Shown: piece by piece, positions 17,242 to 21,252 of the stretch
Position numbering within the stretch: position 1 is the stretch's first letter
Layout: the number at the start of each line of letters is the position of its first letter
Assembly (NCBI RefSeq): GCF_004028275.1
Contig: NZ_CP035033.1
Coordinates: 62,001 to 126,000 of the forward strand
DNA: 64,000 nt
Source: Hydrogenovibrio thermophilus
Lineage (GTDB): Bacteria > Pseudomonadota > Gammaproteobacteria > Thiomicrospirales > Thiomicrospiraceae
Direction of reading: 5' to 3'
Program-made: the position numbers and the translations under genes
The notes under the pieces: model-generated
Database searches by the model: none
What the model was told of the DNA's origin: nothing
What the model saw: only the letters and a program-made list of their open reading frames with translations

Positions 17242-18609
17242 TTACGCGCTGAACAGCTCTTGGTAAAGAGCGTTGGCGCTGGTGACCAGGTCGCCGCTGA
17301 GGGCGAAACCGGAGACATCTTCGCCTTCTTTGTAAAGCAGGCGTTGGTTGTCCCCGACCATCATGGTTTGCTCCCACTGCCCGTGCGTGGCGTGCAATGG
17401 CGGGCTGATCATAATGGGCAAGCTTGGTGTTTTGGTTTTGATCAAGCTTGGCAGCACTTGGAACTGGTCGGTGTCTTCGCCTTTCAGGTGCGCGGCAATA
17501 GCCTTGGCCTGGCGACGAATCGGTTCCAGATACGCTTGCAACACGCCACCGGCTTCGGCACAGTCGCCAATCGCGAAGATATCCGGGTCGGAGGTTTGGC
17601 AAGCGCCGTTAATGCAAATACCGCGATTGGTTTCCAGCTTGGCTTTTTTAGCCAATTCCAAATTCGGTGCCAGGCCGATGGCGGCGACCACGACACCTGT
17701 TTCGATGTATTCACCTTGGTCGGTGTTCAGCCTATACCCGTTTTCGGCTTGGTTCATGTCCACCAGTTCGGAATTTTTGTACAGCTTGACGCCTTTGCTT
17801 TGCAGCTTTTCTTCCAACGACTGGGAAATGGCTTGCGGCAGAATCTGGCTCATCAAATGCGCACCGCGCACCACCATATTGACTTCGATGTCTTGTGAAC
17901 TGAGGTCTTCGGCCAGCTCGGTGGCAATCAAACCGCCGCCGATAAGGGTGACGGATTTTTTGCCTTCCAGGGCTTTATGGAAACGTCGGTAATCCGGCAG
18001 GTCGTTGATGGTCATGATGTCCTGAGCGGCATTGCCGTCCACGGTTGGCGACAAGGCTTTGGCACCGGTCGCAAGAATCAGTTTGTCGTATTGAAAGCTG
18101 CCGGAGGTGGTCATGACCTTTTTACGCTTGGTGTTGATGGACATGACTTTGGTACGGGTTTTAACACCCATATTCAGTTCGGCGGCTTTGGCTTCGGCGG
18201 TCATTTCTTTTAAGTCGTCCGGCGTACGCCCTTGGCTTAAGGCCATGGACAGGGACGGTTTCGGATAGACGGTTCCGTCACAGGCGGTGAGCAAGCTGAT
18301 TTCGGCGTCCGGCATGGCTTGACGAACGTTTTCAGCGGCTTGCCAACCGGCGTAACCGGCGCCGATAATCAAGACGTCGGCATGGGTGCTGGCTTTGCGC
18401 TTAGGCGCACCATCCGGTGAAGATTTCGCCTTCGCTTCGTCCAGTGGAATGAAATCCGATTTACTCACCAGGCACAAAGGGCAGTACCAGTCATCCGGGA
18501 TGTCTTCGAAACGCGTGCCCGGCGCCAATCCGGAATCCGGATCGCCCAGCTCTTCGTCGTAAATCAAACCGCATGTCTTACAAATATACTTTTTAAAATC
18601 TTCACTCAT
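17242..18609 (-). CDS. Rubredoxin-fused FAD/NAD(P)H oxidoreductase
   Basis: A 455-residue fusion. Residues 1-55 are a rubredoxin with both knuckles ([11 protein letters not shown] and DDWYCPLC) that would bind one Fe. After a short linker comes a two-dinucleotide-binding flavoprotein: FAD site [14 protein letters not shown] near 80, NAD(P)H site [15 protein letters not shown] near 222, and a late [16 protein letters not shown]-closing motif. It would pass electrons from NAD(P)H via FAD to rubredoxin, and on to an acceptor. It lies 9 bp after the ACAD-like gene in the same operon, so the ACAD-like protein is the obvious partner. An AGGAGACC site precedes the ATG. Confidence 0.88.
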
Positions 18610-18618
18610 CTTGGTCTC

Positions 18619-19707
18619 CTATGCCGCTTCGATGCGGTCAATTTCCTTACGAAGATGCTTGATGGATGGCGTGACGATAATCACGAAATACGCTTCACGC
18701 AGTTTACGTTGCGGTGCGGCATCCACCAGATAGCCTTTGGCTCCGGCGTGCTGCATGACCGAATCGGCCGCGCGTTTACAGATTTCCGCGCCCAGCAAAC
18801 GGGCTTCCAATACCGACTTGATGTATTCTTGGCCCGGTGTGAAAGGGTCTTCGCACAGCGCTTCGATCAAATCGATGGCATCTTCCAAATCTTCGGTTAT
18901 TTCTTCCGGCGAATCGTCCAGATATTCGTTGATCTCGGACAAAGTCAGATTCGCTTTTTCCATTTCGTTGACGGCGCCTTTAATGACTCCGGCGGCCATT
19001 CCGGTTTGCAATAAGATGAATCCGGCTTTGATTCTTTCCAAATAGGGTTTCAACGGGTCGGCCAACAGGTATTTCTTAGGCAAGAAGGCGTTGTCGAACA
19101 ACAGGGAATAGGTTCCCGTGCCTTCCATCCCGACGAATTCGGCCATTTGTTTCATGGTCAAGCCTTCCAAATCACATGGAATCAGGGCCATGACATCTTT
19201 TTCATAGTTTTTGTCGTGGTCGTGCACACTGAAAATCGAGCCGAAGAAGTGCTTGTCGGAGCCTTCCAACAGGTTGGATACCCAAGGCAAGGTGCCGTTG
19301 ATGATGTAACCGTCTTCGGTTTCTTCCGCGGACAATTTCAGGTCTTCAATGCCGGCAAAATACTTCATCGGGTTCGACAAAGCCGTGGCACCGAAATATT
19401 CGCCATCCACCATTTTCGGCAGGATGTCGGACTTCAACCATTCGTTTTCAGAGTTTTCGATGTACCAGGTACAAACGGACTGCGCCCACATCATAAAACC
19501 GGTCGACATACATTCTTCGGACACGGTCGCCATATCCTGAATAGTTCCGAACAGGTTCAAATCGCCATTGTTCAGGGATGGAATGTGGTGACGAAACGCG
19601 CCGGCTTGGCCAACTTTCGATAAAATTTCGGTCGTGTACTGTCCATGATCAATGGCCACTGTTAACGGCTTCAGATCTTTTTGAACAATTTGACTAATCA
19701 TGGTCAT
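18619..19707 (-). CDS. Acyl-CoA-dehydrogenase-fold flavoprotein lacking the usual catalytic Glu region
   Basis: A 362-residue protein with the ACAD plan: an N-terminal helical domain, a central β-domain (TALSNP..., then a GTLPWVSN segment and a VGMEGTGTYSLLFDNAFLP-like substrate loop), and a C-terminal helical bundle. The C-terminal GGxGY...R..RDA....I.EGT pattern is degenerate: HAGAKGYLVD, then RKLREAY, then TPS (about 346-348) where EGT normally stands. The C-terminal catalytic Glu of classical enzymes is therefore absent. ACAD-fold members without it include flavin-dependent monooxygenases (DszC/SfnB type), so an oxygenase or other oxidoreductase is plausible. An acidic insertion (about 259-290) is also unusual. 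Its co-operon rubredoxin reductase could supply electrons. The substrate is unknown; regulation with cyanase suggests a nitrogen compound. Confidence 0.75.
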   Translation of the reverse strand: MTMISQIVQKDLKPLTVAIDHGQYTTEILSKVGQAGAFRHHIPSLNNGDLNLFGTIQDMATVSEECMSTGFMMWAQSVCTWYIENSENEWLKSDILPKMVDGEYFGATALSNPMKYFAGIEDLKLSAEETEDGYIINGTLPWVSNLLEGSDKHFFGSIFSVHDHDKNYEKDVMALIPCDLEGLTMKQMAEFVGMEGTGTYSLLFDNAFLPKKYLLADPLKPYLERIKAGFILLQTGMAAGVIKGAVNEMEKANLTLSEINEYLDDSPEEITEDLEDAIDLIEALCEDPFTPGQEYIKSVLEARLLGAEICKRAADSVMQHAGAKGYLVDAAPQRKLREAYFVIIVTPSIKHLRKEIDRIEAA

Positions 19708-19724
19708 TCTCCTTCAAAGTGGGA

Positions 19725-19752
19725 AAACCTGGCGGAAACCGCCAGGCCTGGA
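19725..19752 (-). terminator. Intercistronic hairpin (possible attenuator) between the OsmC-like and ACAD-like genes
   Basis: Read on the minus strand, CCTGGCGG-TTT-CCGCCAGG is a perfect 8-bp stem followed by TTTTCCC. The flanking CCAGGCCTGG (19742-19751) offers an alternative pairing. It may trim or partly terminate the operon so that the OsmC-like gene is expressed more than the two downstream genes. Confidence 0.55.
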
Positions 19753-19760
19753 CAGTGTGA

Positions 19761-20300
19761 TTAACCGACTAACTTACCGGACAGATCCACCGCATTCATA
19801 TAGGTGTTGGCTACTGGCGACCATTTGATGGCGTGCGCCACCAAAGCTTCCAAATCTTCTTTTGGTGTACCTGGTGATTCGATGGTGAACATGGCACGCA
19901 CTTCGGTAACACCCAATTTTTTGTTTGGATCCACGTCACCGGTACCCCAAACAGCGGTGATGTTGATGTCACCTTCCAATTCGATTTCCAATTTGGTTAA
20001 ACTAATACCACGGGCTGTCGCATTGGCTTGAACCCCAACAGACAAACATGACCCCAAAGACAACAAAGCCATTTCAGATGGGTTTGGGGCCGTGTCTTCA
20101 CCCAACAAGACAGGTGGCTCGTCCACAACAACCGGGTCCAAGTCACGGATGTAGTTCAAGTTTTTGAACTGACCTTCCAATACGGTTTTGGACTTCAATG
20201 TTTTGATGGTATCCGGTGCGGCTTTCCCTGCTTCGGCCAATTTATTCAAACCATCGTTATCGATTGGACGGATACATGAAGGGATATAGACTTCGCTCAT
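19761..20300 (-). CDS. OsmC-like protein with a single active-site Cys
   Basis: A 179-residue OsmC/Ohr-fold protein. The first family Cys is present in LSLGSCLSVGV (C85). The second, usually in a CPV motif, is Ser here (KWSPVANTY, S161), so the two-Cys thiol peroxidase cycle of Ohr/OsmC is not possible in its standard form. A one-Cys thiol chemistry or a carrier role is more likely. It is the first gene of the minus-strand operon, with GAGGAG upstream of the ATG and a σ54-type promoter at 20365-20380, divergent from cyanase. Confidence 0.82.
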   Translation of the reverse strand: MSEVYIPSCIRPIDNDGLNKLAEAGKAAPDTIKTLKSKTVLEGQFKNLNYIRDLDPVVVDEPPVLLGEDTAPNPSEMALLSLGSCLSVGVQANATARGISLTKLEIELEGDINITAVWGTGDVDPNKKLGVTEVRAMFTIESPGTPKEDLEALVAHAIKWSPVANTYMNAVDLSGKLVG

Positions 20301-20515: not shown

Positions 20516-20577
20516 AAAGAAAAGCCCGAAACGCCAAAAAATAGATAATATACAATTAAATCAACTACTTAATAAAT

Positions 20578-20593
20578 TGGCACAAGCCTTGCA
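20578..20593 (+). promoter_or_regulatory. σ54 promoter of the cyanase gene
   Basis: TTGGCACaagccTTGCAT is a full match to TGGCAC-N5-TTGCA (GG 20579-20580, GC 20591-20592). It is the best σ54 promoter in the window. The predicted start near 20604 puts the whole 170-bp palindrome into the 5' leader. Confidence 0.82.
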
Positions 20594-20620
20594 TTATGGT
20601 CATTGCTTTTTAATTAACTT

Positions 20621-20790
20621 AGGGCACCTTGACTCACTCAGATGGATTCTGGCAACGCCAAATGCGTCATATCGAGGCGTGAACTTTGAACAATGTCTAG
20701 GCCTTGTAAAAGTTCACAACAATGAGATGGCGTATTTGGCTAAGCCCTTTAAGTCCCGCAGAATCTCACCTGAGTGAGTCAAGGTGCCCT
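20621..20790. repeat. 170-bp palindromic MITE-like element in the cyanase leader
   Basis: Perfect 21-bp terminal inverted repeats (20621-20641 and 20770-20790; outer bases AGGGCACCTTGACTCACTCA). Partial pairing continues inward: ATTCTG, then GCCAAAT-CG-CAT, then TGAACTTT-ACAA, down to a CTAG centre near 20698. The right arm has about 11-12 extra bases. There is no transposase and no clean target duplication (flanks CTTA/TTTA). It looks like a non-autonomous element, and as RNA would fold into one long hairpin ending about 4 nt before the cyanase GGAG site. Confidence 0.75.
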
Positions 20791-20808
20791 TTATTGGAGA
20801 CAAAGACT

Positions 20809-21252
20809 ATGATGTCAAAAGTAGAAATGACCGAAGCAATTATCCTGGCGAAAGCGGAAAAATCCGTCGGGTGGAGTGATATTGCGGCGGCCGCAGGATT
20901 GAGTGAAGTCTATACCACATCCGCTTGTTTGGGGATGAACCACTTGGACGCCGAGCCGGCTTCGAAAGTGGCCGCTTTCTTGGGATTGGGCGCGGATATT
21001 GAAGCTGCTTTGCAAGCCTACCCGCACAAATCATGGGAAAAAGCTGTGCCAACCGATCCATTGATTTATCGTTTGTACGAAATTGTCGGTGTTTACGGTC
21101 CAACCATGAAAGAATTGATCCACGAAAAATTCGGCGACGGCATCATGAGTGCCATCGATTTCTCAATGGACATCGATAAAGAAGAAAACCCGGCCGGCGA
21201 CCGCGTTGTCGTCACCATGAACGGTAAATTCCTTCCGTACAAAGCCTGGTAA
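20809..21252 (+). CDS. cynS: Cyanate hydratase (cyanase)
   Basis: A 147-residue protein (E. coli 156) that converts cyanate and bicarbonate to carbamate/NH3 and CO2 as a decamer. The N-terminal helix-turn-helix-like domain (VGWSDIAAAAGLSEVYTTSA) is typical. The catalytic Arg and Glu lie in IYRLYEIVGVYG and the catalytic Ser in GDGIMSAIDF. The start at 20809 (ATGATG) is chosen because GGAG lies about 10 nt upstream; the longer in-frame extension runs back through the palindromic element and is not conserved. It is driven by a consensus σ54 promoter and divergent from the OsmC-like operon. Confidence 0.95.
   Translation: MMSKVEMTEAIILAKAEKSVGWSDIAAAAGLSEVYTTSACLGMNHLDAEPASKVAAFLGLGADIEAALQAYPHKSWEKAVPTDPLIYRLYEIVGVYGPTMKELIHEKFGDGIMSAIDFSMDIDKEENPAGDRVVVTMNGKFLPYKAW

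Follow-up and report, generated by a model that had tools for sequence, protein, structure and literature searches.

The window, the whole stretch of 64,000 nt analysed from the Hydrogenovibrio thermophilus genome (G000), contains the cyanase gene cynS, preceded by a sigma-54 type promoter, a long palindrome and a ribosome binding site. Divergent from cynS, positions 17242-20300 hold genes for OsmC-like, acyl-CoA dehydrogenase-like and rubredoxin-FAD oxidoreductase proteins, as assigned by Pfam. The features of the cynS upstream region, where G009 denotes a related genome and D1 and D2 the two hairpins of the repeat family described below, are the following:

20577-20593, + strand: sigma-54 type -24/-12 promoter of cynS, TTGGCACAAGCCTTGCA, read directly as TTGGCAC-N5-TTGCA
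20618-20621, no strand: left copy of a 4-bp target duplication, CTTA, from sequence reading and comparison with G009
20622-20641, + strand: left terminal inverted repeat (TIR), GGGCACCTTGACTCACTCAG, the same as the right arm over 20 bases
20657-20740, + strand: D1 hairpin domain, an imperfect stem with the motif AGGCGTGA / TTCACAAC and the tip GTCTAGGCC, boundaries set by reading
20741-20759, no strand: scar of the lost D2 hairpin, TAAGCCC joined to TTTAAGTCCCGC, from comparison with 263-bp relatives
20770-20789, - strand: right TIR, from comparison of the arms
20790-20793, no strand: right copy of the 4-bp target duplication, TTTA, with one mismatch, from sequence reading and comparison with G009
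20796-20799, + strand: Shine-Dalgarno sequence GGAG of cynS, read directly and present in the G009 leader too
20809-21252, + strand: cynS, cyanase of 147 aa with ATG at 20809 (Pfam Cyanate_lyase 3.7e-38, CYNS_N 1.2e-17)

A sigma-54-like motif (TGG[CT]A[CT]N5[TA]TGC) was present upstream of 13 of 18 cynS loci, the window included. Its distance to the start codon is 49-98 nt in 12 of the 17 other loci, compared with 234 nt in the window, and the five loci without the motif include cynS copies preceded by apparently coding DNA. The window genome has a second cynS (G000:C1:2459462-2459899, 81% amino acid identity), and the DNA just 5' of it looks to us like the terminal part of a gene for a transporter ATPase-like protein. 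In Pseudomonas pseudoalcaligenes, the cyn genes are reported to have a regulator that depends on sigma-54 and a promoter putatively of this type (PMC6627978).

The palindrome between promoter and ribosome binding site was confirmed. Its inverted arms (20621-20644 and 20767-20790) are 24 nt long and 96% complementary, the first 21 positions pairing perfectly as given in the initial annotation, and the region 20600-20820 is predicted to fold with -97.8 kcal/mol compared to a mean of -51.8 for shuffled sequences (z -10.75; none of 200 shuffles equalled it). The length of 170 bp assigned there needs a small correction, as the mobile unit comprises 168 bp (20622-20789) bordered by CTTA and TTTA, and the outermost pair A20621/T20790 belongs to the flanking duplication outside this unit. 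Likewise, GGAG does follow just 3' of the palindrome, at a distance of five bases (20791-20795) after 20790 and not about four. With 168 bp the unit is too short for a transposase gene and it carries terminal inverted repeats, as is characteristic of a MITE.

Comparison with other cynS loci supported the proposal of a MITE-like insertion. The leader in G009, which encodes an identical CynS (100%) in flanking DNA of 93-96% identity, runs directly from the promoter to the Shine-Dalgarno sequence and thus represents an empty site. Among the 18 cynS loci the window alone carries the element, the 400-nt upstream regions of all 17 others lacking it. The search for further copies and empty sites suggested in the initial annotation found both, the copies lying in the window's own genome and in relatives, many of them between target duplications. 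The element would accordingly have entered the cynS leader with a 4-bp duplication, the simplest timing being after divergence from G009, and this insertion would have left the sigma-54 promoter and the Shine-Dalgarno sequence intact. That the palindrome is instead a native regulatory RNA of cynS that never inserted, as its strong fold and the base-pair covariation across the family might suggest, is extremely improbable and contradicted by both the empty sites and the duplications, since copies sit at many unrelated loci, the other cynS upstream regions contain none and no Rfam entry matched the element.

The repeat family is widespread among sulphur-oxidising bacteria. At least eight elements of the same family occur in the window genome, and family matches were obtained in 28 of the 62 genomes of the host family. 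Scanning named genomes with a pattern yielded 21 loci, of which 18 belong to genomes named Thiomicrorhabdus, Thiomicrospira or Hydrogenovibrio and the remaining three to metagenome-assembled genomes labelled Methyloprofundus, Thiotrichales and Gammaproteobacteria. The copy L099 had no match in plasmids and phages. Altogether 45 distinct elements were delimited, 28 with a length of 261-264 bp (21 of exactly 263 bp) and ten of 155-185 bp. For these counts sequence-identical elements were included once, which drops their sites as well (e.g. L027 with the duplication ATAG), one element interrupted by the contig ends (L005/L007) was left out together with partial copies at such ends, and L085 at 785 was removed as false. 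The 42 sites assessed for duplications are distinct by their flanks, although L006 and L106 seem to be the same insertion present in two genomes. Exact 4-bp duplications flank the element at 21 of these sites, compared to a mean of 1.7 and a maximum of 7 in 2000 permutations, and at least three of the four duplication bases match at 31 sites compared to 8.2 after permutation. Duplications of the form YTAR accounted for five of the six exact cases in the class of copies with GGAACC ends and for none of the 15 in the GGGCACC class.

Flanks were long enough to determine the context of open reading frames at 37 of the 42 sites, the flanks of the other five being too short. At these 37 sites no ORF of at least 100 aa ran through the element, a test to which genes cut by the element are invisible; the neighbouring ORFs are divergent at 17 sites, tandem at 16 and convergent at four. 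An ORF start, taken from the longest ORF and read from the table, was located within about 100 nt at 28 of the 37 sites, which suggests that leader-like positions may be usual for the family. Among the titles and abstracts listed on MITEs or insertion sequences of the host genera or on MITEs and IS5, mostly from the open-access literature, no earlier account of the family was found. We consider it a new family within a known category of MITEs, its unusual trait being a core shared beneath diverging ends.

Rfam searches of seven loci with E values up to 1 returned a c-di-GMP riboswitch beside one copy as the sole match. This c-di-GMP-I-GGC riboswitch (L004 1702-1776, G000 near C1:1184125) is situated about 70 bp beyond a full-length copy, and by its flanks the same insertion is present in G009 (L011). 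Both ends of the single G000 contig (C1:1-103 and 2612735-2612894) hold part of a copy, which suggests that the contig boundary falls within a single element. G019 shows a burst of copies with 89 TIR matches, and several of its contigs end within an element; a 301-bp copy at C78:11-311 of this genome abuts a match to a DDE transposase (C78:311-928).

The family unit of about 263 bp consists of a TIR stem enclosing two inverted, related hairpins. A full element has a TIR stem of about 26 bp with an additional conserved TTCTG/CAGAA clamp, followed by D1, a small CCCC-TTCG-GGGC hairpin, and D2, the minus strand of which resembles D1 by reading, through the common motif AGGCGTG ... CACAAC .. AGA. 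Nine of the ten short copies lack D2 and one lacks D1. The window copy belongs to the former, the end of its D1 being followed by TAAGCCC directly joined to TTTAAGTCCCGC. Palindromes of 27 bp (GGAACCTCTGATTGAATCAGAGGTTCC, with an odd centre base) at L107, L115 and L124 recur in several genomes and are apparently TIR-only remnants. Three copies of 301-302 bp (L096, L114 and L018), representing both TIR classes, carry about 40 additional nt at about the same position between D1 and D2. L122 and L132 in G000 and L256 in G009 combine an ordinary D2 with a D1 whose interior clearly differs, as though this hairpin had been exchanged.

Unusually, the TIRs vary from copy to copy, yet within a copy the arms mostly match each other, and the same D1/D2 core is found beneath different TIRs. 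In G014, G059 and G067 the core stands between other ends of the GG.. type, and core copies in G049 have ends like GGAAACGCAGAACAAGTCC and GGAGACACAGAACAAGTCC, close to the ends GGAAACACAGAACAAGTCC and GGAAACGCGTAACAAGTCC of the IS5-type elements in the same genome. Two weak core matches in G004 (E 3.0e-7 and 2.4e-5) lie in an unlike shell starting with AGTGTGGTGTCCC or AGTGTAGATTCC, which we regard as a lead only.

The mobilising enzyme was approached through elements with similar ends. The genome of the relative G075 contains two elements of about 1.26 and 1.15 kb, each starting with GGGAACCTCGAATAAC at both ends and coding for an IS5-family transposase (271.5 and 199.6 bits against NCBIfam NF033581, cut-off 140); the first transposase also matches DUF772 and DDE_Tnp_1. 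One IS end, GGGAACCTCGAATAACCCC, in which GGGAACCTCGAATAAC continues as CCCC, is identical at 18 of 19 positions to both arms of L099 and to one arm each of L022 and L015, and at 13 of 19 bases to the window TIR; this comparison used one end of a G075 element whose other end differs after base 16. G075 also holds the family copy L184, both arms of which read GGGCACCTCGAATAACCC, so an IS5-family element (L236) and a copy are found in the same genome. Neither of the two G075 IS elements has a direct duplication at its own ends, and a PDB search with the G075 transposase gave no match. YTAR is the target of the IS5 group.

Near-identity of the best family TIRs to those of an IS5-family element makes mobilisation of this type likely. 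Judged from these ends, the family was probably moved in trans by IS5-family transposases, the likely class of enzyme. Neither PF01609 nor PF05598 had a match in the window genome or G009, and no relative of the G075 transposase was detected in either, suggesting that the enzyme responsible for this insertion is now absent from them or of another kind. A search of the window genome for a second site within three mismatches of the left arm was negative, and no donor copy with the window TIR was found there within the same limit. TIR matches inspected in 37 and 62 genomes for a longer parent element with the same TIRs turned out to be miniatures, palindromes of 27-52 bp or single remnants. Two longer TIR-bounded stretches in G019, with ORFs that we presume to be NUDIX-like and GntR-like, look like neighbouring remnants rather than an IS.

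REP and BIME repeats form inverted hairpin pairs with strand preference, and the window family is like them in this respect. Hairpins mobilised in their way by a RAYT-type Y1 transposase are nevertheless a very unlikely explanation. Y1_Tnp matches were obtained in six of 14 genomes examined, namely in six of the 11 with element matches, including the window genome with one match, and in none of the three without (G003, G008 and G015). Against this, G009 and G047 are both rich in copies and have no Y1_Tnp match, none of the six Y1_Tnp loci contains an element match up to 1.5 kb on each side, and the 4-bp duplications and GG..CC ends, which are traits of DDE enzymes, point to an enzyme of that kind. 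The window family thus differs from REP/BIME in its TIRs and target duplications and in that no link to Y1 genes was found. Taking identity and movement together, we favour the reading that the window copy is a non-autonomous, one-hairpin MITE of the approximately 263-bp family moved by IS5-family transposases, with a probability of roughly 0.78.

Compared with MITEs derived from the IS5 family, the window family is similar in its TIRs, nearly identical to the G075 element, and in the YTAR duplications of its GGAACC class, and dissimilar in having a core common to copies with unlike TIRs and non-YTAR duplications in the GGGCACC class. By their published descriptions (PMC10969869, PMC2229807), the Correia/NEMIS elements of Neisseria are likewise short and non-autonomous with TIRs, one copy lying just 3' of a promoter; the window family is set apart by its pair of inverted hairpins, its 4-bp duplications and ends like those of IS5, and the window copy yielded no sigma-70-like promoter. 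The CIR repeats of Caulobacter share the two long hairpin arms and linker and, as far as described there, lack the closing stem of 5' and 3' ends that the window family has (PMC2229807). ERIC/IRU of enterobacteria are also mobile palindromic repeats, with a length of 127 bp given for ERIC, and when transcribed they alter mRNA stability in an orientation-dependent manner (PMC2229807).

Given its position, the element would form a long hairpin in the cynS mRNA leader if the predicted sigma-54 start is right: transcription would begin near 20604, so that a short tail would precede the hairpin. The initial annotation had proposed that such a hairpin hides or presents the ribosome binding site. This found no support, as the mean unpaired probability predicted for GGAG at 37 C was 0.75 in the presence of the element and 0.69 for joined flanks, although the first G alone was less open with the element (0.26) than with joined flanks (0.62). 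For the natural G009 leader, folded from a modelled 5' end 8 bases longer, the corresponding values were 0.38 and 0.62. Pairing of GGAG with an upstream U-rich sequence appeared in the 221-nt fold only, and hiding of the Shine-Dalgarno sequence was set aside because the best structure computed from the predicted start with more of the coding region lacks this pairing. Uncoupling from sigma-54 control was not borne out either, since a scan of the element revealed no sigma-70-like promoter. No short-loop terminator was found inside the element by a scan that is blind to terminators with so large a hairpin.

Two outcomes for cynS have to be weighed. A perfect 20-bp stem close to a ribosome binding site is a plausible RNase III target, and cleavage would in our analysis be the likeliest effect, with no effect almost as likely. 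The complete sequence of events, i.e. a start near 20604, a leader hairpin and RNase III cutting at the TIR stem with a modest effect on the mRNA and no on/off switch, is tentative and may have a chance slightly below even. Alternatively, the same MITE insertion may be a neutral passenger that does not appreciably change the amounts of cynS mRNA and CynS, which we consider quite possible, at somewhat longer odds. Promoter and Shine-Dalgarno sequence are intact, the mean predicted openness of GGAG is hardly different with the element (0.75 compared to 0.69), and the second cynS (G000:C1:2459462) may buffer effects. The RNase III target offered by the TIR stem speaks against neutrality, as does a Neisseria precedent: the mtrCDE operon is affected by a similarly placed Correia element immediately 3' of its promoter, which carries an IHF site and TIRs at which RNase III cuts the mRNA (PMC10969869).

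Structure conservation was assessed in an alignment of 30 of the 32 full-length elements, from which L122 and L132 were omitted owing to their diverged D1. In these copies 43 of 84 consensus pairs were changed on both sides, and 95.8% of the pairing cells were compatible with pairing, compared to 84.7% after shuffling and at most 48.6% when the arms were slid. None of 500 shuffles reached any of five covariation measures, which kinship of the copies can inflate. Departures of the TIRs from the consensus were largely shared by the arms: in the GGGCACC class 51 showed the same base in both arms, five different bases and 45 affected one arm, and in the GGAACC class the respective numbers were eight, one and 15. 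The window copy takes this to the extreme, with a TIR that is unique in the genome (within three mismatches) and arms that agree over 20 bases.

Wobble pairs differed between the hairpins. Counted on the plus strand of the alignment, G.U to A.C cells amounted to 34 to 5 in D1, 13 to 59 in D2 and 33 to 24 in the TIR stem; an alignment-free count was weaker, with 27 to 14.5, 22 to 32.5 and 19.5 to 17.5, respectively. Folding stability pointed the same way, D1 being more stable on the plus strand in 27 of 30 and 17 of 28 copies in two sets, and D2 on the minus strand in 19 of 30 and 23 of 28. The divergent L250 is absent from the alignment-free count and from the stability comparison, and L247 in that set has a broken D2. 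Opposite strand bias of D1 and D2 is suggestive, the copies being related and the counts made without tree correction.

For the covariation of the arms we give even odds to template switching during replication, that is copying from arm to arm, in place of selection for a folded RNA or single-stranded DNA. Such switching can both make and repair hairpins (PMC8794818), and it would fit the excess of shared over different arm departures (51 to 5 and 8 to 1 in the two classes) as well as a window TIR that is unique in its genome and yet the same in both arms. However, strand-blind copying does not predict that wobble pairs lean in opposite directions in D1 and D2 with a near-balanced TIR stem, a lean that is weaker in the alignment-free count. 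A further reading, though rather doubtful, is that the two-hairpin core is a selected module keeping its fold while the mobile shell changes, each hairpin acting single-stranded in a fixed orientation. The shells would then include GGGCACCTCG.., GGAACCTCTG.., GGAAGTGCTG.., GGAAACGCAG.. and perhaps the unrelated AGTGTGGTGTCCC.. in G004, and each hairpin would work as RNA or as protein-bound single-stranded DNA. If this is true, insertion in either direction would always present one correct hairpin to the transcript.

The window and G009 offer a natural pair with and without a MITE between a sigma-54 promoter and a ribosome binding site, through which the effect of a leader hairpin on a probably nitrogen-controlled gene is directly measurable. 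Since the core remains folded and common to copies with diverging ends, and both arms of a copy largely vary in concert, the family is suited to asking whether MITE cores are leftovers or selected structures.
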